Below are positions 1,657-33,236 of a stretch of 37,509 nt of DNA, piece by piece. Positions within the stretch are counted from its first letter, which is position 1; each line of letters starts with the position of its first letter. This DNA comes from a virus. Under the pieces are notes generated by a model that searched no databases, was not told the origin of the DNA, and saw only the letters and a program-made list of their open reading frames with translations. The stretch covers positions 1 through 37,509 of IMG/VR virus record IMGVR_UViG_3300046517_001320. One strand, written 5' to 3'. The position numbers and the translations under genes were made by a program.

Positions 1657-1695
1657 CGTTCATCCGTGAACAAGTCTGGTTAATCCATTAACCGT

Positions 1696-1717
1696 TTAAG
1701 TACTTTAAAGTACTTAA
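1696..1717. promoter_or_regulatory. Perfect 22-bp palindrome between tail genes
   Basis: The left arm TTAAGTACTTT is followed directly by its exact complement, with no spacer. It lies in the 69-bp gap between the stop of the 112-aa tail gene (1726) and the fibre start (1656). It has no T-run, so it is not an ordinary terminator. It could be a protein binding site or an RNA hairpin used for processing or for separate control of the fibre gene. Confidence 0.55.
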
Positions 1718-1725
1718 TCTATATT

Positions 1726-2064
1726 TTAGCCTGGTATAGCCAACAGTGATATGCCTAGATATGCCCCAGCTGCATCAGGTGAAACAGCATGAATCACATC
1801 AGCGCCTTTTACATATTTTGGTTCACATGGTCTAAATTCCAGATTCGCTGTAGTAGTTGTTAATCCAGCACCCGGTGCTGCAGCGGTTACATTTAAACCG
1901 ATAAATACATTGCTATTGCTCGCATAGGTAAAGAATGCCCGATATTTCTGACTATTGGCCCCGGGAACCGTTACTGTTTGTTCAGCATTTACTGCTAAAT
2001 TAATTTGCCAACAAGTATCACTAAATGGCTTTGTATGATCAAAATTGCTTCCGTACATTGTCAT
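1726..2064 (-). CDS. Small tail/virion protein, unknown (112 aa)
   Basis: A 112-residue soluble protein with no signal peptide or membrane segment. ATG 2064 is preceded by AAAGGAGT at good spacing. The second ATG two codons later is less well placed. The sequence is rich in beta-prone and small residues (for example VTAAAPGAGLTTTTANLEF), as in phage head or tail accessory proteins. It lies between the 720-aa tail protein and the long fibre, 13 bp after the former, so it is read in the tail operon. A role as a fibre adaptor or tail cap is inferred only from position. I do not recognise a named family. Confidence 0.7.
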   Translation of the reverse strand: MTMYGSNFDHTKPFSDTCWQINLAVNAEQTVTVPGANSQKYRAFFTYASNSNVFIGLNVTAAAPGAGLTTTTANLEFRPCEPKYVKGADVIHAVSPDAAGAYLGISLLAIPG

Positions 2065-2076
2065 GATTAAACTCCT

Positions 2077-4239
2077 TTATTTGCCAATGCGAGCATCAGC
2101 CGTATAGTGAAAAGTAATTTCTGCAGTCGGCGCTGTTGTTGATCCACCATCGCCAACATTTAAAAGATCGGCTGTTGCGACAACAATAGCTGAAACTCCT
2201 TTAGTTCCCGGTGTTGGCAGCCAGAAAGTATCTGCAACACTAGCTGTTCCTCTTGAGACTGCATTCGTGCGATTTGTAATAGTAACTTCATCTGTCACAC
2301 CAGTAGTCGATCTTAAATGAAGTGTCGGTATGTCTCGTTTTACTGTATTAAATCTAAAACCAAAGGGCCATGCTTTGGAATTAACAAAACCACCGCCTGT
2401 AGCTACAAACATAACGAAATTCAAACAACCAATCGATGTAGATGCGGTAGGAAGAACATATTGATCGTAACTTTTCTCATAATAATATTGGCAATCTTCC
2501 AATACCTGATTAAATGTTTGTGGTTGAGTTGGAAGCGCAAAATCATTATTCACAAGTGAAACATCATTAATAAAAATAATATCTGGCGTTCCACTAATAG
2601 ACATATCAGTTATGGAATAAAATATGATGCCAAGTGTTTGTACGTCTGTAGAGCAAGATGGAAGTGTAAACTTATTAAATGAAAATGTTTGCTCAGTTGC
2701 ATCAGATAAAATAAATATCGGATCATTTTCAGGAATAATTGCTGTATAGCCAGCCGCAAATACGGGATCGCTTCCAGAAACCCATGCCGATACTGGATCG
2801 GTTTGTGATACAGCTCCCGGCACAGTTAACTTGGAAAATAAACGCATCTTCATTGCTATTTTGGATGAATTAATCGTAGTGATTTTTGCTTTTACCATTG
2901 CAGATAAAGTTTTTCCCCAATATGGCGCAATCGTTGCAGTATCAATATATTGAACGATGCCAAATTGGTTCGTTGCTGTAACAGCATTTATTTGCAAGGC
3001 GAAATTATTTGTATTAATCGCTTGTCCAACAGCAATATTATTTGCCGTCGTAGAAGCAACATAGGCTTGCTGAATCATAATTGTTTGATCAGCGGCATGA
3101 TATCCATTATTTGCAACATTGGTTATGGCAGTTGTTGTAAATTGCCAAGGATTCAATGGGAAATTCCAGCCAGCAAGTAAACTATCTTTTGGTTGTGCAA
3201 TTAATGCATCAGCATAATAATGGAAAAGATGATCGAGATTTCTTTCTTCCGTTGTTTGCTGATATTCAGGATTAATTGTTGAAATCAATGTCTGAGTGGC
3301 ATAAGGCATTGATGTAGCAGGATCAATTAATGGGGTATTTTGTCCTACTACCTGCACATCAGTTATTTCAACTGCACCCGTAGTTGGCAAAGTGAAAATA
3401 ATATCTGTATAAGCAACAGAGCTTAAATCAGAGTTATCTTGCACAGGCAAATTCATTGTACCTGAATAAGTAACATAATGCCCTGTCAGGACAGAAGTAT
3501 TAATAACGGTTGTTGGTGTACCTGAATCACTTGGCGAATAGGTGGCACTAACAGATTGCGCTGAACTTGGCGCTCTCCCAAGGAATGAAATGTTAATCGC
3601 ACCATCAGCAAATATATTTCCATTATTATTAAATCTCTGATACAGGATAACGCCCGACCATCCTGAGCTAGAAATATTCAGACCATAATTTATTGCATTA
3701 GGTTCAAGCGCAGCACTTGAGCCAGAATAAATCTTCTGCGTTAAAGTAGTTGTGCCAGAGCCAGTTAATGTTAAAAACCAACCTGGAGAGATTTCATAAG
3801 TACCTGCAACTGTAATCGTAATTGTCGGAACAGTAGGTGAAAGCACTGTCGCTGAAAAATTTACTAATGAAAAATTTCCATTGCTAATCTGATTTTCAGC
3901 AAACAATATCGATACAGCATTAGTAATAATGGAATTGGATGGCCCGGGAACAAAATCATTTATCTCATAAATAAGTGCATCAGTCTGACTCGATCCATGC
4001 CTGATTTCAATTCGATAGACTAAATTAGGATCAAAATATAAATTATCTGGCAGCGTTCCATTTGGATAAAATTGTAATACGCTATTTGTCCAGACTGTCA
4101 TTCCCTGATTGTCTCGGTACACAGCCTGTGGAATGTATGGCAATGTATTTGTCAAAAAAAATGCATAGTACTCATCATTTAAAGGCAAGCCAGTTAAGTC
4201 AGGCAAGTACCATATTGGATTAGGTGCGCGTACAAACAT
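2077..4239 (-). CDS. Large tail protein (720 aa), probable fibre or tail-tip component
   Basis: A long, mainly beta-rich structural protein. The N-terminal part (FVRAPNPIWYLPDLTGLPLNDEY, split by LP and YFDPNLVYRIEIR motifs) resembles an N-terminal tail-attachment domain repeatedly found in uncultured podophages. The middle is Ser/Thr/Gly rich. Near residue 590 the motif LEDCQYYYEKSYD matches the 'LxxCQRYYEKS' signature often seen near the C-termini of phage tail fibres. ATG 4239 follows AAAGGAAAC. It is read after the ejection-protein block and before the 112-aa gene, in the position where P22-like phages place receptor-binding proteins. Virion association is well supported. The exact role (fibre, spike stalk or adaptor) is inference. 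Confidence 0.75.
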   Translation of the reverse strand: MFVRAPNPIWYLPDLTGLPLNDEYYAFFLTNTLPYIPQAVYRDNQGMTVWTNSVLQFYPNGTLPDNLYFDPNLVYRIEIRHGSSQTDALIYEINDFVPGPSNSIITNAVSILFAENQISNGNFSLVNFSATVLSPTVPTITITVAGTYEISPGWFLTLTGSGTTTLTQKIYSGSSAALEPNAINYGLNISSSGWSGVILYQRFNNNGNIFADGAINISFLGRAPSSAQSVSATYSPSDSGTPTTVINTSVLTGHYVTYSGTMNLPVQDNSDLSSVAYTDIIFTLPTTGAVEITDVQVVGQNTPLIDPATSMPYATQTLISTINPEYQQTTEERNLDHLFHYYADALIAQPKDSLLAGWNFPLNPWQFTTTAITNVANNGYHAADQTIMIQQAYVASTTANNIAVGQAINTNNFALQINAVTATNQFGIVQYIDTATIAPYWGKTLSAMVKAKITTINSSKIAMKMRLFSKLTVPGAVSQTDPVSAWVSGSDPVFAAGYTAIIPENDPIFILSDATEQTFSFNKFTLPSCSTDVQTLGIIFYSITDMSISGTPDIIFINDVSLVNNDFALPTQPQTFNQVLEDCQYYYEKSYDQYVLPTASTSIGCLNFVMFVATGGGFVNSKAWPFGFRFNTVKRDIPTLHLRSTTGVTDEVTITNRTNAVSRGTASVADTFWLPTPGTKGVSAIVVATADLLNVGDGGSTTAPTAEITFHYTADARIGK

Positions 4240-15173: not shown

Positions 15174-16070
15174 TTACTTTCTGTTATCTCTAATCTTACT
15201 TTTTCCATGACTGTGAATCAATGAATCAATATCTTGTTTTAGTGGCTCAAATGTAGCGTCGCCACTGATTCTTTTCGCTGGCACAGGCGCAGTCGTTATT
15301 ACTCTAGCCTTGCGCATTCTTTCTTCCAGACGCCCAATCTCAACTCCTTGCGTTACCGCATTGGGAATTTTCGCAATCCGTTCAATTTCACCGGGATTTT
15401 GCTTACAGGCAGCATAAAGAAAAGCAGCCGGGTCTTGCATATCTCTTGCCGCAACCATTATCGCCGCTGTAATTGGCTTTCCACTAACTACCTTTTCAAA
15501 ATCACTATATTTTTGCATACTAGTCGAAAACTTGCTTTCAAATTCAACCTGCGCAATTTCTTCATTGCGACGCCATTGCTTTTCCTGAGTTTCTTTTTCA
15601 ACTTCCTGCGCCGTTTCCTTTATTACTTCCTTTAATTCCTGTTTCCAGTTGGTTTCACTTTCCTCACCTTCCACTGGCGCAGGTTTTTTCTCCGGAGCTT
15701 GAACAGGTTGTTCAATATGGCGATCTTTTAACCGCTTGCGAATCATTGCCTGAACTTCTTCTTCCGTGTATGTTTTTGCTTTAGCGACAGGATTTCCATA
15801 CTCATCTACATTTTCATCAACGCTAGAGGTATCTTCTTTTGACTTATCTTCTGTTTGCGATTCTGTTTTGTCTTCCTTTTTTTCTTCTGGCACTTCCAGA
15901 GAAACCGGTATTTCTTCCTGGCTGGTATCTGGATTTATATTATCTTCTAATTTTTCTTCTATTGGTTTATTGGCTACTTCTCCTGGCATAGGCGTACCCA
16001 GCTTTCTGGCTTCTTCACTAACGATCAAGTTATCAGCGCTTCTTGTTCTATCAATTGCCAAATCAGTCAT
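15174..16070 (-). CDS. Scaffolding protein
   Basis: Guides assembly of the procapsid and leaves before DNA packaging. The 298-residue protein is acidic and Glu/Lys-rich with a disordered N-terminal half, then the motif YTEEEVQAMIRKRLKDRH, coiled coil (residues about 135-175), a compact part with FSTSMQKYSDFEKVV, DMQDPAAFLYAACKQNPGEIERIAKIP and EIGRLEERMRKA, and a basic C-terminus (SHGKSKIRDNRK) that would bind the coat. This matches P22-type scaffolds in size and layout. GGAAATGAGAA precedes the ATG and the gene overlaps the portal stop by eight bases. Confidence 0.85.
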   Translation of the reverse strand: MTDLAIDRTRSADNLIVSEEARKLGTPMPGEVANKPIEEKLEDNINPDTSQEEIPVSLEVPEEKKEDKTESQTEDKSKEDTSSVDENVDEYGNPVAKAKTYTEEEVQAMIRKRLKDRHIEQPVQAPEKKPAPVEGEESETNWKQELKEVIKETAQEVEKETQEKQWRRNEEIAQVEFESKFSTSMQKYSDFEKVVSGKPITAAIMVAARDMQDPAAFLYAACKQNPGEIERIAKIPNAVTQGVEIGRLEERMRKARVITTAPVPAKRISGDATFEPLKQDIDSLIHSHGKSKIRDNRK

Positions 16071-18213
16071 TTCTCATTTCCTTATGTTGATTACTGGTCT
16101 TTTGTGTGTGCGTCAATAATCTGACAATATTGTCAGCATGTGACATTTGCATATCCGCTGACATGCGTTGCATCTCAGCCTGATAACGCAATTCTTGTTC
16201 TTGCAACTTCGCCGCTGCTTCCAGCTTTGCAGCTTCAATTTCCTGCAGCTTCACAGAGATATCCTGTCCTGTTTGAATGCCTTGCAGTTGCAATTCATGT
16301 TCCTTGTTTTCCAGCTCACGCATTTTCAGCATGGTTTTAGCTTCATTGTCCTTTTGCTTCATTTGCAGTTCCTGCATTTTCAGCATCACTTCTGGTGGCG
16401 GCTGATCCTGCTTAGGCGGCAACGGCTCACCAGTCTTGCCAGCTTCAATAATTTCTGGGGGAACAATAGTTCTGAGACGATTACGCAATTCAATGTTGTT
16501 CGCCATCATTGGCAGATTTTCAACATACAAATCAGCTACCATACGGAACAATGTAGGATCGGCTTGCAGGACTGTCTGGATAGATTCGAGATTTTCCTGT
16601 TTCTGTCCTTCAAATGACGCACCAGGCAACAATCTGATCTGATATTTTCCTTGCGTCATGTCATTTTCAATCTGACTGCCGTAAGCATCGACCTGTTTGT
16701 TTAACATGACTGGCTTCACGCCACTATCTGGCATATTCAGCATAACTTCACGTTCCGTATCGTAAATAAACGGAATCATTTCATCTATGATAGAACCGCC
16801 CACAGCAATAGCACGATTAAGGCTATCGAAAGGTACGTAAGTATTAAAGTTCCCACGCTTTGTGCGTGCATCAATAGCTGCGCCAGAAGTTTCATTTCCT
16901 TGCTCTCCCATTTGAGTTCCATAAATGCCAGTACATGACTCAATGTCAGACATGGCGCGTTGATACTGCGTAATCAGTGATTGTGATAATTCAGGTGGCC
17001 TAAGCTGCTCAGGTTTGTTTCCGTTAGCCGATTCATCATAAACTAGCCCACCCTGAGCCGTAGAAGGATCACGCCAGATAATTTGCGTATCTGGTGATTT
17101 GACATTCGCTTTACTAACAAGAAATTGATCATAACGAGATACGCGCATCATATATGCTGATTGCGTACCCAAATAATTGATGTATCGTTGCGCATCACGC
17201 GCATCTTTTACGATTGGACGACATATTTGCTTGCCAGATTTATCAATGTAACTATTCTGATCAACAAAAATGACCGGCAATTGCTCGCTGACAATATCCG
17301 TTTCTTCCAGAATAAACTCACCGGCTAATTTTCTGTGCTTAATTTTGTATTTTGGAACATCCCGCTGATTCTCTACCGACACAATTTCGCCATTGTCGAT
17401 ATATAATTTTTCCATTCTTGCGCTACTTGCTGACTTAACCTTGATTTTTTCCAGTTTTCCCAATTGCTTACTGGTTAAAGAACGACCATTAGATAACTGA
17501 TAAAGAGTTTCCGAGGAATATTCACGTTCATAATCATTAATGATCGTAATTTCCTTGTCATTACTGAAAATCCAGCCAGTCGCCGATCCTTCGTCATAAT
17601 TCGCATCGGAGCCAATCTGCGCTTCAATATCCTTGCCATAAATGCCCGCAAACATCTTTCTGGACATTCTGGTACGATATCCTGCTCCCATACCATCAGT
17701 TTTACATGGTGACAAGGCTGAAATATCCCAATAACACCATGTTGGGTCTTTAATATCCCGCAATACAATAATCTGATTGAATGAATGGTTATTTTCATAT
17801 TCCGTATCAAGCATATAAGCGCCAAAACCGCCAATCGCTGCCTGTTGAAATGCTGTCTGATAGACGCGCTTCGCATCACTGTTCAAGGAAATATCCTTGA
17901 TCAATGCCTCACGTATCTTGCTTGTCTGAACCGGCACACCATCGCTTGGCATAACCTGCAAGTTAGGCGTGTTTTGCCGTTGTTCGCCAAGTAAATGATT
18001 GATAAGAGGGGCTAATTTATTAAAACTGAGAGGGATTTTTTTGTAATCAACAAATAGTTTTGACTCGTCCTCTGTCCACTGACTACCCATGACAAAAGAA
18101 GTAAATTCATGATATTGGTCTTTATTAAATCGCCAGTTATCATCCCATTTCTTGACGCGTTCACGTATTTTTTTCGCAACTTCCATATCGCGATAAGGCT
18201 TGGCCATGTTCAT
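16063..18213 (-). CDS. Portal protein, P22 gp1-like
   Basis: Forms the dodecameric ring through which DNA is packaged and released. The most likely start is ATG 18213 (MNMAKPYRDMEVAKKI, 716 aa; M at 18207 also possible), since the frame upstream to 18345 codes for an unusual hydrophobic stretch containing a DnaA-box sequence and probably belongs to the leader. Characteristic parts are FTSFVMGSQW, LLGEQRQNTPN, YQTAFQQAAIGGFGAY, DPTWCYWDISALSPCKTDG, and a long Gln/Glu-rich helical barrel at the C-terminus (residues about 610-700), as in P22. Length compares with 725 residues for P22 gp1. Confidence 0.9.
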   Translation of the reverse strand: MNMAKPYRDMEVAKKIRERVKKWDDNWRFNKDQYHEFTSFVMGSQWTEDESKLFVDYKKIPLSFNKLAPLINHLLGEQRQNTPNLQVMPSDGVPVQTSKIREALIKDISLNSDAKRVYQTAFQQAAIGGFGAYMLDTEYENNHSFNQIIVLRDIKDPTWCYWDISALSPCKTDGMGAGYRTRMSRKMFAGIYGKDIEAQIGSDANYDEGSATGWIFSNDKEITIINDYEREYSSETLYQLSNGRSLTSKQLGKLEKIKVKSASSARMEKLYIDNGEIVSVENQRDVPKYKIKHRKLAGEFILEETDIVSEQLPVIFVDQNSYIDKSGKQICRPIVKDARDAQRYINYLGTQSAYMMRVSRYDQFLVSKANVKSPDTQIIWRDPSTAQGGLVYDESANGNKPEQLRPPELSQSLITQYQRAMSDIESCTGIYGTQMGEQGNETSGAAIDARTKRGNFNTYVPFDSLNRAIAVGGSIIDEMIPFIYDTEREVMLNMPDSGVKPVMLNKQVDAYGSQIENDMTQGKYQIRLLPGASFEGQKQENLESIQTVLQADPTLFRMVADLYVENLPMMANNIELRNRLRTIVPPEIIEAGKTGEPLPPKQDQPPPEVMLKMQELQMKQKDNEAKTMLKMRELENKEHELQLQGIQTGQDISVKLQEIEAAKLEAAAKLQEQELRYQAEMQRMSADMQMSHADNIVRLLTHTQKTSNQHKEMRND

Positions 18214-18482
18214 ACATCCATGTATGTCAATAATTTGTTCTAGTCTATCATGCAACTTATCCACAAAAAATGTTAATAAGTATGTGAATAAGCCATGTAT
18301 GAGTTGTTGATGACTATTTTCGCTATTTATTTCATACAAGGCCATCCATAAGATATCCCCACCTTATCATTTCTGCCAAGCCGTCTGCCAAATAGGTAAA
18401 TTAGACTTATCCACCATTTTTACCTCACATAATAATAGTAAAAAAATAAAATCTATTATAATATCCGGCAACATAATATAAT
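18214..18482. promoter_or_regulatory. Divergent control region between portal operon and plus-strand small-gene block
   Basis: This stretch separates divergent operons. Near 18420-18482 it is almost pure A/T with TATAAT boxes on the plus strand at 18457-18462 and 18477-18482, but no good -35, so an activator may be needed. On the minus strand a possible 16-codon leader peptide (18417-18367, MVDKSNLPIWQTAWQK, with GAGGTAAAA before its ATG) lies before the portal gene. A perfect DnaA box TTATCCACA is at 18257-18265 and a one-mismatch copy TTATCCACC at 18407-18415. Confidence 0.45.
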
Positions 18483-18742: not shown

Positions 18743-18991
18743 ATGACAAAAGAAGAATTTATTTATAAATATGGACAGCCAGCTTATCTTGGCGATTCTG
18801 TGTATGCATGGTTCGATGGCGCGCATCTCGTACTTGAAACCAGAAATGGCCTGCCAACTGACCCAAGCAATACCATCATGCTTGAATCAGTCGTACTCAA
18901 AAACCTGTTTGATTACAGCATGCAACTTGCCGACGATGCCGAACAATTAAAGAACATTGCCACAGTCAAGGAACTCGGCAATGACGGATAA
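18743..18991 (+). CDS. Conserved phage protein, unknown (82 aa)
   Basis: ATG 18743 has AAAGGAACAAAC upstream and is the first gene after the structured leader. The sequence MTKEEFIYKYGQPAYLGDSVYA, here shown only by its two key parts YGQPAYLGDSVYA and LESVVLKNLFDY, fits a small phage protein type with a 'YG.P.YLGD..YA.FDG' core that recurs in many early gene blocks, function unknown. Being first behind the leader, its level is the most likely to be set by that RNA. Confidence 0.65.
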   Translation: MTKEEFIYKYGQPAYLGDSVYAWFDGAHLVLETRNGLPTDPSNTIMLESVVLKNLFDYSMQLADDAEQLKNIATVKELGNDG

Positions 18992-19268
18992 CATTGATTC
19001 AATTGTGCATAAGATTGTTAGAAATTCCATTGATTCAGCTTCCGATATGGAAGCCAAACTTTTTGAAGCAGAAGATAATTTATCAAAAACATATAACGAA
19101 TTAATAAAAATTGAAATAACAAATATGTGGTTAATGGATTTTGTCAGAAATTTAGCTGCACAAGATCATGATGAAGCTAAAAGATTTTTAGAGTTATTTA
19201 GCAAAAGAATAAATCTCACAAAGGAAATCTCACTTGAAAACAACCATAAAGATGGAAAATCAATTTAA
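18981..19268 (+). CDS. Hypothetical helical protein (95 aa)
   Basis: ATG 18981 follows AAGGAACTCGGCA. Earlier in-frame starts lie inside the preceding gene. It overlaps the preceding gene by 11 bases. The protein is helical, charged, with no membrane segment. It begins MTDNIDSIVHKIVRNSI. No family recognised. Confidence 0.55.
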   Translation: MTDNIDSIVHKIVRNSIDSASDMEAKLFEAEDNLSKTYNELIKIEITNMWLMDFVRNLAAQDHDEAKRFLELFSKRINLTKEISLENNHKDGKSI

Positions 19269-19578
19269 TTCCCCAGAAGAAAAACTAGGATTTTTCCAGA
19301 TATCCTGTCTATCTTCAATAATAGCAATGGCTCATGAAGGAGCAAGTCGCGGCATATTAATGGAGATGAAAGAAATTATAGAAAGTTTCAACTCTACTAT
19401 CTGGTCTTTACTTGCATTATGTTCAACAGGAAAACAAATGCCAGAGACTGATAAAATAATTCAGGTATTAGGAATACAATTAGATACAACATTTTCAGAT
19501 TTAAAATCAATGACAATGGAGTTAAACGAACTACGAAAAAATAATACATTGAAAAAAGCGAAAACAACTAATGACTAG
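19234..19578 (+). CDS. Hypothetical protein, probable TTG start (114 aa)
   Basis: The best ribosome site, AAGGAAATCTCAC, precedes a TTG at 19234. The first ATG (19252, MENQFNSPEEK) has no good site. The protein is helical with hydrophobic patches (FFQISCLSSIIAMAHEG) and a Lys-rich end. It overlaps the gene before it by 35 bases if TTG is used. No family recognised. Confidence 0.5.
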   Translation: MKTTIKMENQFNSPEEKLGFFQISCLSSIIAMAHEGASRGILMEMKEIIESFNSTIWSLLALCSTGKQMPETDKIIQVLGIQLDTTFSDLKSMTMELNELRKNNTLKKAKTTND

Positions 19579-20047
19579 CCTAGAAAATCAGGTATGCTCA
19601 CTTGAATTAGCTAAACAATTAAAAAAACTAAAAGTCAAACAAGAAAGTTTATTTTATTGGTATTTCTGTATGCTTGATGAAAAAACACCAAATTGGCATA
19701 TTCGATATACTAATTTTGGTTTAATGCCTGATAGATATTCAGCATTCACTGCTGCCGAATTACTCGACCTATTACCGCATCGCATTACACTAAAAGAAAA
19801 TGAGCCATATAATTCATTTCGTTTTCGTATGGAAAAAGGCATTTGGGCAAACGATAAATCAAACAATATAGCAACCATACAATTCTCTGAATTTTATTCT
19901 GTAAATTATTATTGCGATACCACTTCACAGCAAATGGACTGGATGTTTACCTCTTTAACTCACCATATTAGTGATGAGAATCCTTCAAATTCGCTTGCCA
20001 AAATGCTTATATATTTAATTGAGAATGAACTGTATGAAAATATCTGA
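19571..20047 (+). CDS. Conserved phage protein, unknown (158 aa)
   Basis: Contains WHIRYTNFGLMPDRYSAFTAAELLDLLPHRI and YSVNYYCDTTSQQ (the first read in parts: WHIRYTNFG, AFTAAELLDLLPHRI). The 'xFTAAELLDLLP' pattern is common in small phage proteins of unknown role across Gram-negative hosts. No membrane segment, signal or catalytic motif is visible. It overlaps the upstream stop by eight bases and has a poor ribosome site, so coupling is likely. Confidence 0.65.
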   Translation: MTSLENQVCSLELAKQLKKLKVKQESLFYWYFCMLDEKTPNWHIRYTNFGLMPDRYSAFTAAELLDLLPHRITLKENEPYNSFRFRMEKGIWANDKSNNIATIQFSEFYSVNYYCDTTSQQMDWMFTSLTHHISDENPSNSLAKMLIYLIENELYENI

Positions 20048-20225
20048 AAAACAATTAATCATTCTTTTTGATTTAGCTTTATGGTTTTCTCAGTTAAATA
20101 TGTCATGGCGATCCTTAGGCCCACCCTTTACCAGAGAAATGATAAATGATCTAGTAAATGAAATTTATAATCAGCAATCCAATAAATTGATTGATATTAA
20201 AGATGACTTACCTTTTCGAGAATAA
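20034..20225 (+). CDS. Hypothetical protein (63 aa)
   Basis: ATG 20034 overlaps the end of the preceding gene by 14 bases, with GAGAATGAACTGT upstream. Begins MKISEKQLIILFDLALWFSQ. The N-terminal half is hydrophobic and could be a membrane-associated helix, the rest is charged. No family recognised. Confidence 0.55.
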   Translation: MKISEKQLIILFDLALWFSQLNMSWRSLGPPFTREMINDLVNEIYNQQSNKLIDIKDDLPFRE

Positions 20226-20231
20226 ATTAAT

Positions 20232-20882
20232 ATGATTACCCAGATAATCGACACATCCACCGTCAAAGATATCGCCAGCGAAGTACTCTTGCCAAATGGG
20301 CAAATCAGGCTAATGTCTGCCAAAGAATGGCAGCAATTTGACTGGCTAGACTTTCGCACCTTCTGCCACGTCCATGCACGCTATGGCATACCCACCACGG
20401 AACTCATTGGCTTCTTGCAAGAGCAAATCCCAAGCAAAAAGCACGCCATAGAAATAGGCGCAGGTTCCGGCGATCTTGGCCACTATCTTGACATTCCCAT
20501 GACCGATTCTCGCATACAAGAAGACCCTGTCATCCAAATGCAATATGCAGCCATGCGCCAACCTGTCATTAAATATTCCCCAGAAGTCAAAAACCTCGAA
20601 GCACTTGACGCCGTAAAAACTTTCAACCCCAGCACTGTTATCGCAAGCTGGATTACTACTTATGCACCGCATAAGATGCCATATGGCTCCAATCCTTATG
20701 GCGTAAAAGAATCCATTATACTTCCGCTCATTGATAAATTTATTCTGATTGGCAATCTTGACCAGCACTGGGATAAGCCAATCATGAAAATGAAACATGA
20801 AGAATATTATTTCGACTGGCTTGTTAGCCGTGGCAAAGATCAAAGTAAAAACCGTATATGGATTTGGGAGAATAATGTATGA
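20232..20882 (+). CDS. Putative SAM-dependent methyltransferase (216 aa)
   Basis: AIEIGAGSGDLG (residues 72-83) is the glycine-rich SAM-binding motif I of class I methyltransferases. An acidic residue follows at the end of the next strand (DIPMTDSRIQ). There is no DPPY or PC motif, so it is not an ordinary DNA adenine or cytosine methylase. I recall related proteins in proteobacterial phage early regions, with unknown substrates. The DNA is richer in G and C than its neighbours, hinting at recent acquisition. ATG overlaps nothing. The stop overlaps the next start as ATGA. Confidence 0.7.
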   Translation: MITQIIDTSTVKDIASEVLLPNGQIRLMSAKEWQQFDWLDFRTFCHVHARYGIPTTELIGFLQEQIPSKKHAIEIGAGSGDLGHYLDIPMTDSRIQEDPVIQMQYAAMRQPVIKYSPEVKNLEALDAVKTFNPSTVIASWITTYAPHKMPYGSNPYGVKESIILPLIDKFILIGNLDQHWDKPIMKMKHEEYYFDWLVSRGKDQSKNRIWIWENNV

Positions 20883-21040
20883 CTGACACACAATTCTTGG
20901 CATTAATGGGAACACTGTACCTGATACTTGCAGCGCAATGGAAAGATACATTTAAAATATTCGCAATGTGGCAATGGCTTGGCATATTCATGTTAATAGT
21001 ATCGGCTTGCGTTTCAATTGCGAGGATATTCGTACAATGA
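20879..21040 (+). CDS. Small two-helix membrane protein (53 aa)
   Basis: Overlaps the methyltransferase stop (ATGA) and its own stop overlaps the next start, so translation is coupled. Two hydrophobic segments are visible, TQFLALMGTLYLILAA and WQWLGIFMLIVSACVSI, joined by a short WKDTFK loop, so a membrane hairpin is likely. Such phage proteins may be superinfection exclusion or lysis-accessory factors, but this is only a possibility. Confidence 0.6.
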   Translation: MTDTQFLALMGTLYLILAAQWKDTFKIFAMWQWLGIFMLIVSACVSIARIFVQ

Positions 21041-21324
21041 GAATATTCCAGTTTACTAATTCATTTATAGCAATTGATGACATACGCAGCGTTCTTATTT
21101 ATCCTGCACGCGAAACCTCTGGCGTCATTCGTCAACATCATCATGCTCCACGATGGATAATGAAAGTTATCTACAATAACGATGGCGTATATAAGGCATT
21201 CTTTGACAATGAAAACTTGGCACGTCAGGTTTATATACGATTAATGAATACCATTGAAAGCAATATAAAAGAAGAAATGAAACTACAATCAGCAATGGGC
21301 TGGGAAGCGACAAAAGGGTTTTAA
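21037..21324 (+). CDS. Hypothetical protein (95 aa)
   Basis: ATG 21037 (MRIFQFTNSFIAIDDIRSV) is in the overlap ATGA with the membrane protein, with GAGG 11 bases upstream. The protein looks like a small alpha/beta domain with VIRQHHHAPRW as an odd histidine cluster. No family recognised. It is probably cytoplasmic. Confidence 0.6.
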   Translation: MRIFQFTNSFIAIDDIRSVLIYPARETSGVIRQHHHAPRWIMKVIYNNDGVYKAFFDNENLARQVYIRLMNTIESNIKEEMKLQSAMGWEATKGF

Positions 21325-21326
21325 AT

Positions 21327-21548
21327 ATGAGTGAATTTACCTGCTCTCTTTGTCAGGAAACTTTTCCCAAGAAAAATGATAAAGAATGGAATGATTTTAA
21401 AGCCGCTGAGGAAATGCTAACTCTTATGCCAAGATGCAAAAATCATCCAACTGAGACTATATGCGATGATTGTCATAAGATATTTTTAACCTGGTTTAAT
21501 GAATTAACTGACGAAGAAAAGAGAGCTATTGAAGATGAACCCTATTGA
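21327..21548 (+). CDS. Small Cys-rich (zinc ribbon-like) protein (73 aa)
   Basis: CSLC near the N-terminus, then C..H (CKNHP) and CDDCHK give a probable four-ligand zinc site. The rest is Glu-rich (ELTDEEKRAIEDE). It starts two bases after the upstream stop. One of several zinc ribbon proteins in this block; likely a nucleic acid or protein interaction module of unknown role. Confidence 0.6.
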   Translation: MSEFTCSLCQETFPKKNDKEWNDFKAAEEMLTLMPRCKNHPTETICDDCHKIFLTWFNELTDEEKRAIEDEPY

Positions 21549-21903
21549 TACATGCCAGAAATGCCAAGCAGAAGAAGATGATTTAAGAACATTATGGATG
21601 GCCTGTTTTTATGAGATGAACGAACTTGACTTGCCGTTTACCAAACAAACAATACTGGAAGGTGGCAATGAAAAAGATAAGCGAACCTTTTATACCTTGC
21701 GAGTCTGCAAGAATTGCCGCGCACGATGGATGGATATGATTAAGACATGGTTTCATTTCGATTTCAAACGACCATCACCCAAAACGGGTATTTATGTTCG
21801 CCATTACGGAACTAATATAGAGCTTACCGAAGAAGAATGGCACGACAAGTTTTCAGGACAAGTACCAATAAGGTTTATATCAAATGATGAAATGCCAAAC
21901 TAA
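21535..21903 (+). CDS. Zinc-ribbon-like hypothetical protein (122 aa)
   Basis: ATG 21535 overlaps the preceding gene by 14 bases. CQKCQ near residue 7 and CKNCRARW near residue 60 form the likely zinc pair. The C-terminal part, GIYVRHYGTNIELTEEEWHDKF, is read in pieces as GIYVRHYG and LTEEEWHDKF. I know similar pairings only from uncharacterised phage proteins. Confidence 0.6.
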   Translation: MNPIDTCQKCQAEEDDLRTLWMACFYEMNELDLPFTKQTILEGGNEKDKRTFYTLRVCKNCRARWMDMIKTWFHFDFKRPSPKTGIYVRHYGTNIELTEEEWHDKFSGQVPIRFISNDEMPN

Positions 21904-22075
21904 TGCTAAACCCGGCATGATTTTATATGCCATTTTATGTAAACAATGCGAAACACATCATCCAGATTGGCGTTATCCATGCCCTGATAAATGCGAAGGT
22001 GGAAAGATTTCTATCGAACCTCTTGGTTATAAAATTTGCCCAATATGCCAAGGAAGAGGATATTTAAATGAATGA
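21884..22075 (+). CDS. Zinc-ribbon protein with DnaJ-like CxxCxGxG end (63 aa)
   Basis: Three pairs, CKQC, CPDKCEGG and CPICQGRGY, give one or two zinc centres. The last copies the CxxCxGxG of DnaJ. It overlaps the upstream gene by 20 bases and the next by eight. A later ATG (MILYAILC) is an alternative start. Confidence 0.55.
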   Translation: MMKCQTNAKPGMILYAILCKQCETHHPDWRYPCPDKCEGGKISIEPLGYKICPICQGRGYLNE

Positions 22076-22244
22076 ATGGATAAGTGTAAAAGATAGATTA
22101 CCTGAAAAAGAAGATAGATATTTAACATTTGGAAAGCCATTTGGAATAAGTACAGAATATTGGCGACATGATAAAATATGGCAGCGTGATCCATATCACT
22201 GCATAACCCATTGGCAACCATTACCGGAGCCGCCACATGAATAA
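22068..22244 (+). CDS. DUF551 family protein (58 aa)
   Basis: Begins MNEWISVKDRLPE and ends THWQPLPEPP, the start and end signature of DUF551 ('WI.V.DRLP' ... 'THW.PLPEPP'), a small protein common in enterobacterial phages and prophages, function unknown. It is shorter than many members, lacking part of the central region. It overlaps the neighbours on both sides by eight bases. Confidence 0.8.
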   Translation: MNEWISVKDRLPEKEDRYLTFGKPFGISTEYWRHDKIWQRDPYHCITHWQPLPEPPHE

Positions 22245-22485
22245 GCTGCCAACTCTCAAGGATTACTTGACGAATGAAGAATGGGAAAATATGGGCAAGC
22301 ATGAATGGATAAATATAGATGTTGAATATCCACCATTTTTTAAGCCAGTCTTAACAACTGATGGTAAATCTTGCGAAATAAGAACATTACGAATCAGAGA
22401 TGGAATAAAATTCTGGTTTAGTCATTCAAAAAGTAAAATGCATTTCATAGTACAATATTGGCAATTATTACCGGAGTTACCATGA
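22237..22485 (+). CDS. Second DUF551-like protein (82 aa)
   Basis: After a 22-residue lead it repeats the pattern: HEWINIDVEYPP...PVLTTDG and ends YWQLLPELP, like the DUF551 beginning and 'W..LPE.P' end. It directly follows the shorter DUF551 gene, suggesting duplication and divergence, or two acquisitions. The stop overlaps the next gene by four bases. Confidence 0.6.
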   Translation: MNKLPTLKDYLTNEEWENMGKHEWINIDVEYPPFFKPVLTTDGKSCEIRTLRIRDGIKFWFSHSKSKMHFIVQYWQLLPELP

Positions 22486-22703
22486 AAACAGTAACCATAA
22501 CAGTAGCGCTAAATCAACCATACAGCGATGAAGATATACGGCCACTGATTACCGCCATCAAACAATTGAAAGGCGTTGCCAATGCTACTGCAATAGAATT
22601 TACAGGCGATGATCAAATGAATGCATGGTGTTATAAGCAAAACTGGATAAACGAAATGATGTCGAAAGCAATAGCCGTTCTTTCCGGTGAACGTATTGCA
22701 TGA
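22482..22703 (+). CDS. Hypothetical protein (73 aa)
   Basis: ATG 22482 follows GGAGTTACC. Earlier starts lie inside the DUF551-like gene. The protein MKTVTITVALNQPYSDEDI... looks like a small ferredoxin-like alpha/beta domain (beta strand, helix, strand). Ends in a helix with AIAVLSGERIA. No family recognised. Confidence 0.55.
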   Translation: MKTVTITVALNQPYSDEDIRPLITAIKQLKGVANATAIEFTGDDQMNAWCYKQNWINEMMSKAIAVLSGERIA

Positions 22704-22721
22704 AAGTTGAGGATGCCTGCA

Positions 22722-22850
22722 ATGTCAAATGAAGTATGTAAAATATGCGATGGTCATGGCGACTATTATATAAAAATAGAAATTTTCGATGAACCATTAT
22801 TAATAGAATGTGACAACTGCAAGGAATTTAAAAATGACACTAACAATTAA
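22722..22850 (+). CDS. Mini zinc-ribbon protein (42 aa)
   Basis: Has CKICDGHG and CDNCKEF, a DnaJ-like CxxCxGxG plus a second CxxC, a complete zinc site in 42 residues. ATG 22722 has GAGG eight bases upstream; ATG 22713 is in frame but too close to it. It overlaps the next gene by 17 bases. Confidence 0.55.
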   Translation: MSNEVCKICDGHGDYYIKIEIFDEPLLIECDNCKEFKNDTNN

Positions 22851-23085
22851 CGAAAAAATAGCATTAGATATACTACACGCTGAAAAGAAAGGCTTTGATG
22901 AAGCTATAAACCGTGTATTGAAACTATGCTCAGAGCAAGCCAATGATTATGCACGCATAAGAAAAGAATTATCAGAAAAACATAGGGAATCATTGCCATT
23001 TCATTACAAAGCATTAGCTATAATTGATTTTAAACTTTACCTTGAACAACTCTTTCAAATGGAAGTGTCAATCAATGACCGATAA
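22834..23085 (+). CDS. Hypothetical helical protein (83 aa)
   Basis: ATG 22834 follows AAGGAATTTAAAA. The protein is helical and charged (MTLTINEKIALDILHAEKK...). No membrane segment, no recognised family. Overlaps the next gene by 11 bases. Confidence 0.55.
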   Translation: MTLTINEKIALDILHAEKKGFDEAINRVLKLCSEQANDYARIRKELSEKHRESLPFHYKALAIIDFKLYLEQLFQMEVSINDR

Positions 23086-23338
23086 ATTAGATATTGATGT
23101 TGAAGAATTAGGCAAATTAATACTTGAGATGACACCTCGATACAGAGCTATCGTTGAACTATTCCCGAAAGGCAATGAAAGCATGTTGCGACATCTTGCA
23201 GCGTCATCAATACACTTGGCTTTCTTTATGCGAGACTTTCATGATGTACATAAGGGAACGAAAACTGCCATTTGTCCCATGCATGAAAAAGAGTTTTTGA
23301 AAAAATGTGGATGTGATTTTAATACCAAGGATAAATAA
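23075..23338 (+). CDS. Hypothetical protein (87 aa)
   Basis: ATG 23075 (MTDKLDIDVEELGKLI) overlaps the previous gene and has GGAAG upstream. A C-terminal CPMHEK...KKCGCDF could bind metal through C, H, C and C. No family recognised. Confidence 0.55.
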   Translation: MTDKLDIDVEELGKLILEMTPRYRAIVELFPKGNESMLRHLAASSIHLAFFMRDFHDVHKGTKTAICPMHEKEFLKKCGCDFNTKDK

Positions 23339-23405: not shown

Positions 23406-23537
23406 ATGAATAAATGCTGCAAAGAAACAATGAAAAGAATTCTCGAGGAAATCATATTTAACATGGAACACGCTAAGTTTGAAAGCCCACAAATGCATAT
23501 TGATGCGCTTAAATATGCTCGTTCATTACTTAAATAA
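23406..23537 (+). CDS. Small hypothetical protein (43 aa), last of the plus-strand block
   Basis: MNKCCKETMKRILEEI... ends ALKYARSLLK. Helical, with a CC pair. It overlaps the convergent TerL stop by eight bases, and no terminator is visible between the two convergent operons, so read-through and antisense transcription into terL are expected. Confidence 0.5.
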   Translation: MNKCCKETMKRILEEIIFNMEHAKFESPQMHIDALKYARSLLK

Positions 23538-25056
23538 ACATTCCCGGCCGTGGCTTTGGCACAGTTGTTATGGCAAAGTCACTGACAGGCTCATAGAAAC
23601 CGGAATAGAACGTCAATGCTAACGCATCACTTGTGTCAGGCGATGGCATACCACGTGCCTTTAAATCATCTTTCGACTCTATTTGCAGTCGCCCCGAACT
23701 ATCATATTTGTAACCAAGATTGCATAAGTCGCCGTGAAGATCATCTCTATCAGGAATCTCAACAGGCATCTCTTGCACAAGCCAGTCACGCATCGTCGAC
23801 CATAATTCAGCCCGAAGATTTTTGAATTTATCCTTTTGATTTGCAGAACGAGCTACGTTAATACCTTCGACAAAACTAAAATTATGCTCACGCAACCGGT
23901 CAACAACGCCAGCACCGACACCGATGCAATCAATGTATACACGATAGGGATTTTCCTTTTCAATGATATGTTTAAGTAAGCCCGCAATTTCCATTGTGTT
24001 CATGTTGCGGTAAGTTTCAAGATTATAGGCTACACGTCCACGTCTTCGAATGATGGCAGTTTTATCAGTGTCGCCAAGTGCGACGTCAACGCCAATGATA
24101 AGATTCTGCGTATCGTTGTGTTCAACTCGTTGCTTTCTCGCCTTAACCACATGCTTGCTATTAATAAAGACATTGGCAATCGGATTGAGAAATGCTTCTG
24201 TAGCCGAAAATGGGAACTCCTGCTTGAATGATTCGAGACCAATATCAAAATCATTACTAAACTCCGCTATCTTAAACCTGCGCCATGATAAATGCTTATT
24301 AGTTAGTCCATCTTTACCATATATAGATAAAAGGAATTGTTCCTCATCCGATGCCTGAAAACCATTATCAATAGATGTATATTCATTTTGCCAATACCAT
24401 GGCAAGAAGATAGGAATGTAACCATTACTACCATCTTCCGCAGCTTTCCACATTGAATGAAAGTAATTGCCAATACCATTAGCCGTTGATTCAAGAATGA
24501 TTTCAGTACCAGCTTCATTACTAACAGCTTGCAATACACCTCGAGCATGCTCCTCAGCATTAGGCCAAAAACCTACCTCTGAGCCATGAAATAGCTGGAT
24601 TGTCTGCGAACGTCCCGCTCCTTTATTTCCGGCTGTTCCGATAGCATAACCGCTATCATAAGACTTAAAATAGAGTTCTTTGCTGGATGATTTATCAGCT
24701 TTACATGCCAGGCCTTTAGGTAATTTGTCATAAAACCTCTGCGTCATTTCAAATAAATTCTTTGTTGCTTCTGCTTCATGCGTGAGTATGTAAACCTTTG
24801 TACCCAAACGTGTAACCATCTTATGGAAATAACGGCCTTGGGTATAAGTCGAGAAACCTTGCTGTCTACCCTTTAAAGCTAAAGCGCGAACACGGCCAGT
24901 TTCCCTGAGTTGCGTTTCTATTTTGTCATGCGCATATAATTGAGCGCGATTCAATCTGAAAGGCTCAATGCTTCCGGCTTTACTTCTTATTACTAAGCAA
25001 TCAGGGGCAAACTTTGTGAAGTCTTTAACAATATCCAACAGGTGTGACTCATCCAT
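23530..25056 (-). CDS. terL: Terminase large subunit (TerL)
   Basis: The DNA packaging motor: N-terminal ATPase and C-terminal nuclease. 508 residues, usual for the family. Walker A-like KGRQQGFST at 62-70, followed by the YFHKM and ILTHEAEATKNLFE region, then the FGSEVGFW-like FHGSEVGFWP and EIILESTANG (Walker B/coupling region), and the RNase H-like nuclease with IGVDVALGDTDKTA near 320 and YIDCIGVGAGVVDRL, then a conserved acidic KSKDDLKARG region near the end (read as ESKDDLKARGMPSPDTSDA in the protein). It cuts concatemers by the headful mode in P22-like phages. It lies just after the Acb2-like gene and far (about 5 kb) from the portal gene. Confidence 0.92.
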   Translation of the reverse strand: MDESHLLDIVKDFTKFAPDCLVIRSKAGSIEPFRLNRAQLYAHDKIETQLRETGRVRALALKGRQQGFSTYTQGRYFHKMVTRLGTKVYILTHEAEATKNLFEMTQRFYDKLPKGLACKADKSSSKELYFKSYDSGYAIGTAGNKGAGRSQTIQLFHGSEVGFWPNAEEHARGVLQAVSNEAGTEIILESTANGIGNYFHSMWKAAEDGSNGYIPIFLPWYWQNEYTSIDNGFQASDEEQFLLSIYGKDGLTNKHLSWRRFKIAEFSNDFDIGLESFKQEFPFSATEAFLNPIANVFINSKHVVKARKQRVEHNDTQNLIIGVDVALGDTDKTAIIRRRGRVAYNLETYRNMNTMEIAGLLKHIIEKENPYRVYIDCIGVGAGVVDRLREHNFSFVEGINVARSANQKDKFKNLRAELWSTMRDWLVQEMPVEIPDRDDLHGDLCNLGYKYDSSGRLQIESKDDLKARGMPSPDTSDALALTFYSGFYEPVSDFAITTVPKPRPGMFI

Positions 25057-25072: not shown

Positions 25073-25270
25073 TTAGGTAATAGCTTTAATTGCCCACATG
25101 ACAGCTTGTTCAAGATTAACAACAGATAAAGCCCTACAGCGCTGGTCAGATCTGATTTGCATATCATTTATTATTTTTAATAATAATTCAGCGCTATCCT
25201 TTATTTCAGCGCATCTATCAATTTGTTCTTTTGTAAGCGGTATATATTCTTTTCTAAAAGTATCAGCCAT
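25073..25270 (-). CDS. Acb2/Tad1 hairpin family protein, candidate anti-CBASS/anti-Thoeris sponge (65 aa)
   Basis: The C-terminal half SDQRCRALSVVNLEQAVMWAIKAIT matches the helical hairpin family seen in Acb2 ('Rxxxla.T.LEeAvMWa..aI'), shown here by its key parts RCRALS and NLEQAVMWAIKAIT. The N-terminal half has PLTKEQIDRCAEIK and a long helix, as in the family. Known Acb2 proteins bind cyclic oligonucleotides of CBASS, and some also Thoeris signals. Length fits. It sits between TerS and TerL and shares their late operon. Binding is not shown by the sequence alone. Confidence 0.72.
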   Translation of the reverse strand: MADTFRKEYIPLTKEQIDRCAEIKDSAELLLKIINDMQIRSDQRCRALSVVNLEQAVMWAIKAIT

Positions 25271-25279
25271 TTTAATCCC

Positions 25280-25735
25280 TTATTTGCTATTTAATTTCTC
25301 TCTATTCTTACTAATAAAGTCCGATCCATCTTTTTCTTCAGACTCTTTCTTTTCACCATATATGCGAGGTGCAAGTTTAGCGGCTAACCATTTACGTGAA
25401 TCAACACGCAATTTAGAACGGTTAATCCATTCACTATTTGCACTCTCATATTCATCACCTTTTGTATTGCTTTTGATGATAGTGTCATGCGTCGAATCGT
25501 CGGAAATATCCAGTATTTGATCGACTAAAAGTTCAATTTGATTTTGTTTAGCGCGTAGATACATGTCGCCGAAAGAAGGAACCTTTATGCGCCATTCATA
25601 AACAGTTTGATAACATGGCCAATGAGAATTTTGCTTGCATAGCGTTACAATGCTAGCTGAATTAGTAGCCATTTTAAGGCAAATTTCTTCGCCTATTTCT
25701 TGCGTATATTCTAATTGACGTCCTATCTTTCCCAT
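25280..25735 (-). CDS. terS: Terminase small subunit (TerS), Sf6-type
   Basis: Recognises the packaging start site and recruits TerL. 151 residues with the N-terminal helix-turn-helix region (YTQEIGEEICLKMATNSASIV), the motif SHWPCYQTVYEWRI, FGDMYLRAKQNQ, and the C-terminal RSKLRVDSRKWLAAKLAPRIYGEK. This order matches Sf6 gp1-like small subunits, which are 140 residues. No ribosome site is visible before ATG 25735; an inverted repeat occupies that place. The gene lies directly upstream of the Acb2-like and TerL genes. Confidence 0.88.
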   Translation of the reverse strand: MGKIGRQLEYTQEIGEEICLKMATNSASIVTLCKQNSHWPCYQTVYEWRIKVPSFGDMYLRAKQNQIELLVDQILDISDDSTHDTIIKSNTKGDEYESANSEWINRSKLRVDSRKWLAAKLAPRIYGEKKESEEKDGSDFISKNREKLNSK

Positions 25736-25853: not shown

Positions 25854-25888
25854 AGGTTCATCTTAAACAAGTGATGAGGTTAAAAGAA

Positions 25889-26110
25889 ATGAAATCCAAA
25901 CTCGATATAATAAATGACGTAATAAATAACCAACAATATACAAAAATATCAATGTTACTTGGTACAAAAAGAAAAACAGTAATATTAGATTTTCAAACTG
26001 CCAATCTTTTAAAGAAATTATTTGACACTTCCCCAACCGAAAACATAGGAAAATTGCAAAAACTTGGCTGGGATAGACTTTGCAATATGGCATGGTCAAT
26101 GATCAAATGA
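25889..26110 (+). CDS. Hypothetical basic protein (73 aa), first gene of the cassette
   Basis: ATG 25889 with GAGGTTAAAAGAA upstream. Two earlier in-frame starts lie closer to the promoter and lack spacing. The protein MKSKLDIINDVINNQQYTKIS... is Lys/Asn rich and helical, possibly with a small DNA-binding domain near SMLLGTKRKTVILDF. No family recognised. It is the first gene after the 25825 promoter. Confidence 0.55.
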   Translation: MKSKLDIINDVINNQQYTKISMLLGTKRKTVILDFQTANLLKKLFDTSPTENIGKLQKLGWDRLCNMAWSMIK

Positions 26111-26142
26111 AAAAAGAATTAACTTAACTAGGAGCACTAAAA

Positions 26143-26280
26143 ATGAAAAAAACTTTACTAATAACGACTGGCATTTTATGGCTAATAACTTTAAGCATTA
26201 TCGAGACAAAAGTATTTGCAGCAACATGCCATACTGTATGTAGCGAATGGAATAATATGTGTGATACAACCTGCGATTAA
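26143..26280 (+). CDS. Exported cysteine-rich mini-peptide (45 aa)
   Basis: MKKTLLITTGILWLITLSII then ETKVFA is a textbook signal peptide: two Lys, a long hydrophobic core and a VFA cleavage site. The mature part would be about 19 residues (ATCHTVCSEWNNMCDTTCD), with four cysteines spaced CX3C-X6-CX3C, so two disulphides in the periplasm are likely. AGGAG precedes the ATG. It is the only exported protein predicted in the window besides membrane proteins. Role unknown: envelope modification, host inhibition or a signalling peptide are options. Confidence 0.72.
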   Translation: MKKTLLITTGILWLITLSIIETKVFAATCHTVCSEWNNMCDTTCD

Positions 26281-26323
26281 TTAAAACATCAAAGCCTATT
26301 ATGAGTAGGCTTAAATGTTTTAA
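26281..26323. terminator. Long stem-loop after the exported peptide gene
   Basis: TTAAAACAT (26281-26289) pairs with ATGTTTTAA (26315-26323) outside an inner AAGCCTA/TAGGCTT stem with a 7-nt loop and 2x2 internal mismatch. The arms end in U-rich bases on either strand, so it can act as a terminator in both directions. The gene at 26345 lies beyond it and may be expressed by partial read-through. Confidence 0.65.
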
Positions 26324-26344
26324 TTAATCAATTAAGGGATGAAA

Positions 26345-26515
26345 ATGAAATACGATTTAATCATTGAGGAAGAAAACTTTATAATTATAAACACCATCGA
26401 AAAAAAACCTGTAGTCTGGATAAACAAGGAATATTCCAATATTGAAGCTGCAAAAAAAATAGTAGTCAATTTCAACGCCCAAACAGACCAATTGCCTTTA
26501 GCTAAATTGGCTTAA
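26345..26515 (+). CDS. Small hypothetical protein (56 aa)
   Basis: MKYDLIIEEENFIIINTIE... looks like a short beta-alpha domain with a VWINKEYSNIEAAKKIV middle. ATG 26345 has AAGGGATGAAA at good spacing. It overlaps the convergent holin gene by 14 bases. No family recognised. Confidence 0.55.
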   Translation: MKYDLIIEEENFIIINTIEKKPVVWINKEYSNIEAAKKIVVNFNAQTDQLPLAKLA

Positions 26516-31505: not shown

Positions 31506-31608
31506 TTACATAACATCAAAACAACGAATAAAGCTAACGTTATGGCAAGAAATTAAATTTTATCTTTGGAGAAGAAAAAATGCTTACACCCGAACAAAAA
31601 GCAATTAG
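31498..31608 (+). CDS. Possible small basic peptide (36 aa)
   Basis: MTDYITSKQRIKLTLWQEIK... overlaps the previous gene by eight bases and the exonuclease start by 29 bases. AGGGGATTTA precedes it. Short and basic, so it may only be a translational coupling leader. Confidence 0.35.
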   Translation: MTDYITSKQRIKLTLWQEIKFYLWRRKNAYTRTKSN

Positions 31609-32416
31609 AAAATCAGGACTTGGCGCAACAGATTGCGCGGCAGTGATGGGCTTGTCTCCGTACAAAACCCCATTTGAGCTTTGGCTTGTCAAAACAGGCA
31701 GGGCAGAAGAAGAAGCGATCTTGAATGACTCCCGTTTAAGACTTCGCCATGCGCATGAAGAAACGATCGCGAGAGAGTACGCAGCGCAGCGCGATGTCAA
31801 ACTGCGACGTGCTAACCAAACGATCTATCATGACCGGCTGCCGTATATGCTTTGCCATTTAGACCGCGTTGTCATTGGCGAGCGAAAGATTATCGAGTGC
31901 AAAAGCTCAAGCGGGTTTCTGCGGCAGGTATGGGGCGAAAGCGGTTCGGATGAGGCGCCGTTACATTACATCTTGCAAGTGCAACATCAACTGGCGTGCT
32001 CTGGCTACGATGATGCCGACCTTGCTGCGCTGATAGACATTGACGACTATCGTATTTATCCACTGCCAAGGAATGAAAAAATCATCGCCAAAATAGAAAG
32101 TGAGTGCGAGCGTTTTTGGCATGAGCATGTTCTTGCAGATATACCGCCAGCGCCAACAAACCGGGCTGACTTAAAGTTAATGTTCCCACAGAACAATGGC
32201 AAGTTCATCACGGCAACGCCTGACATCGAGTGCTTTATTGCAGAACGCTCTTTACTGAAAGCAACAGCAAAAGCAACAGAAACCGAAATTGAAACTCTTG
32301 AAAAGGAAATTATTCAATTCATTGCAGATAATGACGGCATTAAAAATGAAGAAGATAAAATTATCGCAACATTCATTGCAAATAAAAACGGCACACGTTC
32401 ACTGAGGATTAAATAA
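31580..32416 (+). CDS. YqaJ-type (lambda Exo-like) 5'-3' exonuclease
   Basis: 278 residues. GLGATDCAAVMGLSPYKTPFELW near residue 13-35 (shown as GLGATDCAAVMGLSPYKTP and FELW), then LPYMLCHLDRVV with D95, and IIECKSSSG with E106 and K108, then VQHQLACSG. These are the YqaJ catalytic and binding motifs. It resects double strand ends to leave 3' single strands for the neighbouring RecT annealase. GC content is visibly higher than in recT, suggesting separate histories. GGAGAAGAAAAA precedes ATG 31580. Confidence 0.9.
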   Translation: MLTPEQKAIRKSGLGATDCAAVMGLSPYKTPFELWLVKTGRAEEEAILNDSRLRLRHAHEETIAREYAAQRDVKLRRANQTIYHDRLPYMLCHLDRVVIGERKIIECKSSSGFLRQVWGESGSDEAPLHYILQVQHQLACSGYDDADLAALIDIDDYRIYPLPRNEKIIAKIESECERFWHEHVLADIPPAPTNRADLKLMFPQNNGKFITATPDIECFIAERSLLKATAKATETEIETLEKEIIQFIADNDGIKNEEDKIIATFIANKNGTRSLRIK

Positions 32417-32417
32417 C

Positions 32418-33236
32418 ATGGCTACTCAAAGACAAGAATTATCATTACGAGATCAAGAATTTAATTTTACGCCAACTACTCTTGCTGAAGCGCAAGAGTA
32501 TGCAAAGATTTTTGCAACAAGCGGATTGTGTCCACAAGCTTATCGTGGTCGTCCTAATGACGTTTTGCTTGTTTGGCAAATGGGCGCAGAACTCGGGCTT
32601 GGTAAAATGCAAGCATTGCGAACAATCGGTTGTATTAATGGTACGCCATTTGCTTACGGTTCTGGCTTCCTTGCATTAATCAGAAGGCATAAAGATTTTG
32701 AAGATATGCGCGAATGGATGGAAGGGTCAATCAAGGAAGGCAACCTTACAGCATTTTGTGCGATTAAAAGAAAAGGTCAAACAGAAACTGTAAAAAAATT
32801 CTCAATGGAAGATGCAAAACGTGCTGGTCTTTGGCAAAGAAAAGATAGCAACTATGAAAAATATCCAGGACAAATGCTTGAATGGCGTGCAAGGACATTT
32901 GCAGGACGCACAGCAATACCAGAAGCGCTTTATGGATTGCCAACAGAAGATGAAGTTCGAGGTATGCAAAAAGACGACCCGGCAGTGAAGCCAAAAGGCA
33001 AAGGCATATCAGGTCTTGAAGATACATTGGATATTAAAAATGATGACACAATACTGGAAGCAGAATTTGAAGTTATGCAATCACCATTAGATGAGCTAAA
33101 AGATTTAATCATGAAAAAAAATGTTAATCATAAAACAATTGAGTTATGGTTAAAGAAAGCAAATGTCGTAAGTCTTGACGGCATGAGTGATGAACAAATA
33201 TTGCAAGGCATTAACTTTTTAAAAAATAAGGATTAA
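32418..33236 (+). CDS. recT: RecT-family single-strand annealing protein
   Basis: 272 residues, next to the YqaJ exonuclease, as usual. Motifs include EAQEYAKIFATSGLCPQAYRGRP (read as EAQEYAKIFATSGLCP and AYRGRP), VLLVWQMGAELGLGKMQALR, ATIGCINGTPFAYG-type region (TIGCINGTPFAYG), RRHKDFEDMREW and MLEWRARTFAGRTAIPEALYGLPT in part. It anneals complementary single strands during recombination and replication restart. GAGGATTAAATAAC precedes the ATG, two bases after the exonuclease stop. Confidence 0.9.
   Translation: MATQRQELSLRDQEFNFTPTTLAEAQEYAKIFATSGLCPQAYRGRPNDVLLVWQMGAELGLGKMQALRTIGCINGTPFAYGSGFLALIRRHKDFEDMREWMEGSIKEGNLTAFCAIKRKGQTETVKKFSMEDAKRAGLWQRKDSNYEKYPGQMLEWRARTFAGRTAIPEALYGLPTEDEVRGMQKDDPAVKPKGKGISGLEDTLDIKNDDTILEAEFEVMQSPLDELKDLIMKKNVNHKTIELWLKKANVVSLDGMSDEQILQGINFLKNKD

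Follow-up and report, generated by a model that had tools for sequence, protein, structure and literature searches.

What does a gene of 65 codons do when it lies between the two terminase genes of a small uncultured phage? The window analyzed here is the whole 37,509-nucleotide stretch of the IMG/VR virus record IMGVR_UViG_3300046517_001320. The open reading frame was found at 25073..25270, exactly where the first-pass annotation had placed it with the strand unstated; it lies on the minus strand, starts with ATG, and encodes a 65-aa protein ending in RCRALSVVNLEQAVMWAIKAIT. This protein matched the Pfam family PF24729 (Acb2/Tad1 hairpin) with 55.8 bits (E 5.3e-15; profile positions 2-57 of 58) against a curated gathering threshold of 27 bits, and the gene, hereafter the acb2-like gene, is the only PF24729 gene in the 37.5-kb record. 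Relatives of the protein were detected by tblastn at 55 viral loci, and a copy with 48% identity occupies the same place in another phage, L081. The score at twice the gathering threshold, the 55 loci, and the L081 copy together ruled out a chance ORF. Between the window and L081 copies, differences were found at 29 first, 20 second, and 38 third codon positions over 65 codons, the second position being the least changed, as would be expected of a protein under constraint.

The acb2-like gene is flanked directly by both terminase genes, in agreement with the placement initially proposed. TerS, an Sf6-like terminase small subunit (25280..25735, minus; PF20901, 104 bits, E 4e-30; phrog_1482, E 5e-31), lies upstream across a 9-nt gap, and the terminase large subunit TerL (23530..25056, minus; phrog_2, 117 bits, E 2e-33) lies downstream across a 16-nt gap. 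The next head-module gene on the minus strand encodes the portal protein (16063..18345; phrog_156, E 5e-85). Small plus-strand ORFs occur on either side of TerS-acb2-TerL, at 25871-26515 and 18743-23338. A pattern scan, which found five terminator-like repeats when 2.6 were expected, detected an inverted repeat with T-rich tails both ways upstream of TerS (26292..26312). This repeat may mark the boundary between the lysis genes and the TerS-acb2-TerL unit, and together with the flanking plus-strand ORFs it suggests that the three genes may be a transcription unit of their own. No promoter-like site above chance was detected on the coding strand near the acb2-like gene (nine on both strands against 13.2 expected), so that the gene is most likely carried on the TerS-TerL transcript. 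In L081, the stop codon of the acb2-like gene overlaps the TerL start (ATGA). Given these two observations, the late expression suggested in the first-pass annotation appears reasonable, with the timing deduced from the terminase.

The plus-strand ORFs between TerL and the portal gene, about a dozen, form a 5-kb island (18743-23338), while the TerL-portal spacing in relatives is about 0-3.6 kb. Most of these ORFs had no homologue in related loci except in copies of the same virus, and seven of them matched no family in a Pfam scan. The island is an accessory-gene hotspot. On the plus strand at 31580-33236, a gene for a YqaJ exonuclease (PF09588, 109 bits) is followed by one for a RecT-like protein (below the cut-off), and the two are a phage recombination pair.

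The assignment to the Acb2/Tad1 hairpin family, made at first from the letters of the DNA, was supported by the Pfam score at twice the cut-off. All 15 relatives aligned from viral contigs also matched PF24729, and M1, F5, A27, R44, L48, and N52-A60 (NLEQAVMWA) were invariant in them. The true relatives in the PDB were found by profile search only and were absent from a single-sequence phmmer search. The profile of the 15 relatives detected nine PDB sequences, each of them Acb2 or Tad1, at marginal E-values of 0.012-0.46; the matches included T4 Vs.4, Acb2 homolog 43, p26/Acb2, and Tad1, and three Tad1-type entries bear the names ABC transporter ATPase or Thoeris anti-defense 1. Profile comparison gave a probability of 91% (E 9e-7) with PaP2 Acb2 and of 93% (E 3e-7) with T4 Vs.4. 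The NCBIfam scan of the protein gave zero matches, and the PHROGs matches were limited to the unannotated families phrog_717 and phrog_1454. It is well supported that the 65-aa protein is a clear and fairly ordinary member of PF24729, slightly unusual in its compactness and position.

The hairpin aligned to positions 207-282 of phrog_717, a PHROG of 289 positions with unannotated function, which suggests that an Acb2-like hairpin forms the C-terminal part of some larger phage proteins. In records of Paenibacillus phages (KT361656, NC_055029, MH454076), PF24729-like proteins carry the annotation phosphomannomutase, which is apparently erroneous.

A Tad1-like anti-Thoeris protein binding gcADPR would carry the same Pfam hairpin, and Tad1 chains were among the profile-search matches, but we give this reading almost no chance, because only 13 residues precede the hairpin, strands are absent from the structural model, and the solved Tad1 chains have 123-138 aa against 65 aa here. 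Tad1 has an N-terminal four-stranded antiparallel beta-sheet in addition to its helices (PMC12043709). Membership in Tad1 was rejected, as this N-terminal domain is missing from the short, strandless protein. The activity against Thoeris raised in the first-pass annotation was thus unsupported, the absent beta domain being a contributor to the gcADPR pockets, and sensible prediction is limited to CBASS-type cyclic oligonucleotides.

The AlphaFold2 monomer model (mean pLDDT 87.7) was a two-helix antiparallel hairpin, consisting of an N-terminal strap (residues 1-13), a helix (14-36), a loop, and a second helix (43-64). Such a helical hairpin had been anticipated from the sequence, and the nearest solved structures were those of Acb2/Vs.4. 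Foldseek against the PDB gave T4 Vs.4 (with cGAMP) and PaP2 Acb2 at the top, and ranks 1-7 and 9 were all Vs.4/Acb2 with probabilities of 0.87-1.00 and weak E-values of 0.1-1, as expected for a hairpin of 65 residues. VIA-align against Vs.4/Acb2 gave Z of 7.0-7.2 and rmsd of 2.0-2.6 A over 60-61 of the 65 residues, with 26-28% identity, which exceeded that of unrelated helical rows. As Z of 7 is common among helical hairpins, the weight rests on the sequence agreement.

When the window protein was aligned with the L081 copy, PaP2 Acb2, T4 Vs.4, and five further relatives, Y9, K24, M58, and the start Met were the sole invariant columns. K24 aligns with K26 of PaP2/PaMx33 Acb2, which we take to be a residue of the cyclic-dinucleotide pocket. 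Y9 aligns with Y11 of PaP2/PaMx33 Acb2 and with Y8 of T4 Acb2, and the Y8A substitution in the latter was reported to disrupt cyclic-dinucleotide binding (PMC12657218). The Tyr and Lys that belong to the cyclic-dinucleotide pocket are thus kept; a lack of binding-pocket residues would have spoken against the original proposal. The base-stacking F82 of T4 aligns with the terminal T65 here and with Ala in PaP2, neither of which provides an aromatic counterpart, and the pocket therefore differs from that of T4. The inter-helix segment is also shorter than that of Acb2 by about 20 residues, so that the hexamer may differ from that of Acb2.

The ligand range varies among family members, and both Acb2 and Tad1 bind cyclic trinucleotides at a trimer interface (PMC12043709). 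The hairpin could accordingly sequester a signal other than the CBASS dinucleotides, either cA3/cA4 from type III CRISPR or a further nucleotide, and the face formed by R44 and the A/N/E/A/M/W residues is indeed the best conserved, above the N-terminal pocket. We regard this as unlikely in view of the retained dinucleotide-pocket residues.

The placement of the acb2-like gene, unusual and informative, was compared among relatives gathered through TerL. The order TerS-acb2-TerL is common to one other phage, L081, the TerL of which is 75% identical to that of the window. In four close relatives TerS is next to TerL and the intervening gene is absent, with the two genes overlapping in L068 and L078 and separated by a short gap in L069 and L070. 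No PF24729 gene was detected throughout the 37.6-kb records of L068 and L069, while the records of L070 and L078 are fragments, so that a copy at another site of these two genomes is possible. L006 and L008 have TerL, the portal, and the next head gene in common with the window, and their acb2-like gene is located downstream of that head gene. In the distant carriers (L005, L011, L012, L013, and L018), the gene is again close to a head-tail adaptor, portal, or major head gene. Mapped on the TerL tree, its presence needs four changes, at least three of which are forced by well-supported branches. The TerS-TerL copies, the empty junctions, and the other head-module sites point to an accessory gene that was gained and lost within the morphogenesis region, and the pattern is one of repeated landing there. 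Among named phages, those with the TerL closest to that of the window were Pseudoalteromonas H6/1 and Vibrio 1.182.O (42-44%), and in H6/1 TerS overlaps TerL with the intervening gene absent.

The location between the terminase genes, which the window shares with L081, would also agree with a hairpin that was recruited as an accessory factor of the terminase, perhaps in TerS/TerL regulation or as a scaffold, and has lost the sponge role. This is highly improbable, however, as the close relatives L068 and L069 package without the gene, its position is different in L006 and L008, and the pocket residues are kept.

The host was sought among genome contigs, and only six members of the wider family were found, all from Bacillota (Paenibacillus, Metasolibacillus, and Lysinibacillus); their identity of 32-45% is too low for the host to be named from them. 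In L078, an 883-aa TerL ORF (462-3113) contains both halves of a 508-aa TerL with some 375 additional residues between them. It gave weak NCBIfam matches to proteins with inteins, and this large terminase probably contains an intein. In L071, a 98-aa ORF (3697-3993; QNLDQSFMWAREAF), the end of which overlaps the start of the TerL ORF, showed a weak Acb2-like profile match (E 7e-5) and matched no Pfam family; it is possibly a diverged hairpin at the same terminase-side position.

Returning to the question of function, we consider with good confidence that the acb2-like gene encodes a compact Acb2-type cyclic-oligonucleotide sponge and is an accessory gene in the packaging operon. Judging from the family, the predicted fold, and the pocket, the most likely role would be that of an anti-CBASS sponge made together with the terminase. 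On the model of Acb2, the hairpins of 65 residues would associate as a hexamer, in which Y9 and K24 would line pockets for 3',3'-cGAMP or other cyclic dinucleotides. Packing of the protomers would rely on the inter-helix interface (R44 to A60), where the cyclic-trinucleotide sites would probably also lie. The sponge would hold the CBASS signal uncut, so that the effector would stay off during virion building. As an accessory (moron) gene in the head/packaging operon, it would share a transcript with TerS and TerL and probably be coupled to them in translation, and this membership in the operon would have the sponge made in the late phase.

Phages without acb2 escape CBASS via mutation of the major capsid protein, according to a review (PMC10419184), which would fit a sponge made when the capsid is made. 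Acb2 also triggers the Panoptes defence (PMC12657218), so that a sponge may be costly to the phage, and such a cost would explain why the acb2-like gene is present in some relatives and absent from others. We tentatively raise the possibility, doubtful as it is, that in this phage group a minimal Acb2 is encoded within the terminase/head operon, in some cases with a stop/start overlap coupling it to TerL, and is thereby timed with the late products that trigger CBASS. If this is true, the late-operon sponge would represent a timing strategy distinct from the early-region Acb2 as in T4. The late-operon position raises the question of whether a CBASS sponge is needed only once structural proteins appear. 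The family of cyclic-nucleotide sponges is now extended, in a version of 65 residues, to small uncultured phages of about 37 kb, and its gene there enters and leaves the junction between TerS and TerL.

Acb2 sponges form homo-hexamers that have three sites for dinucleotides and two for trinucleotides; they bind cyclic oligonucleotides, let them go intact, and block CBASS in infection. The protein described here resembles Acb2 of the PaP2 p26/PaMx33 gp24 type (PDB 8H2J, 8H2X) in the PF24729 hairpin and the aligned pocket Tyr and Lys, with 26% identity and a Foldseek/VIA match of 2.0-2.4 A over 60 residues. In contrast to the 65-aa protein, PaP2-type Acb2 has 93 aa, its inter-helix segment is longer, and it has a C-terminal tail, and the PaP2 gene is located not between TerS and TerL but at the end of a gene run including DNA polymerase that converges on the capsid gene. 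Tad1 (PDB 7UAV, 8SMD) has a similar C-terminal hairpin (RExAxALTxxExAxMW) but differs in the N-terminal beta domain contributing to gcADPR binding, which the 65-aa protein does not have. Acb2 homolog 43 (PDB 9PTQ, 76 aa) is likewise compact and shares the Arg and the T/N-x-LE-x-A pattern, whereas its last helix is without the MW motif. T4 Vs.4/Acb2 (PDB 7UQ2) differs in its length of 88 aa, in the base-stacking F82 absent here, and in its location in the T4 early region, while sharing PF24729, the aligned Y8 and Lys, and the A-x-MWA-x-x-A last helix at 29% identity.
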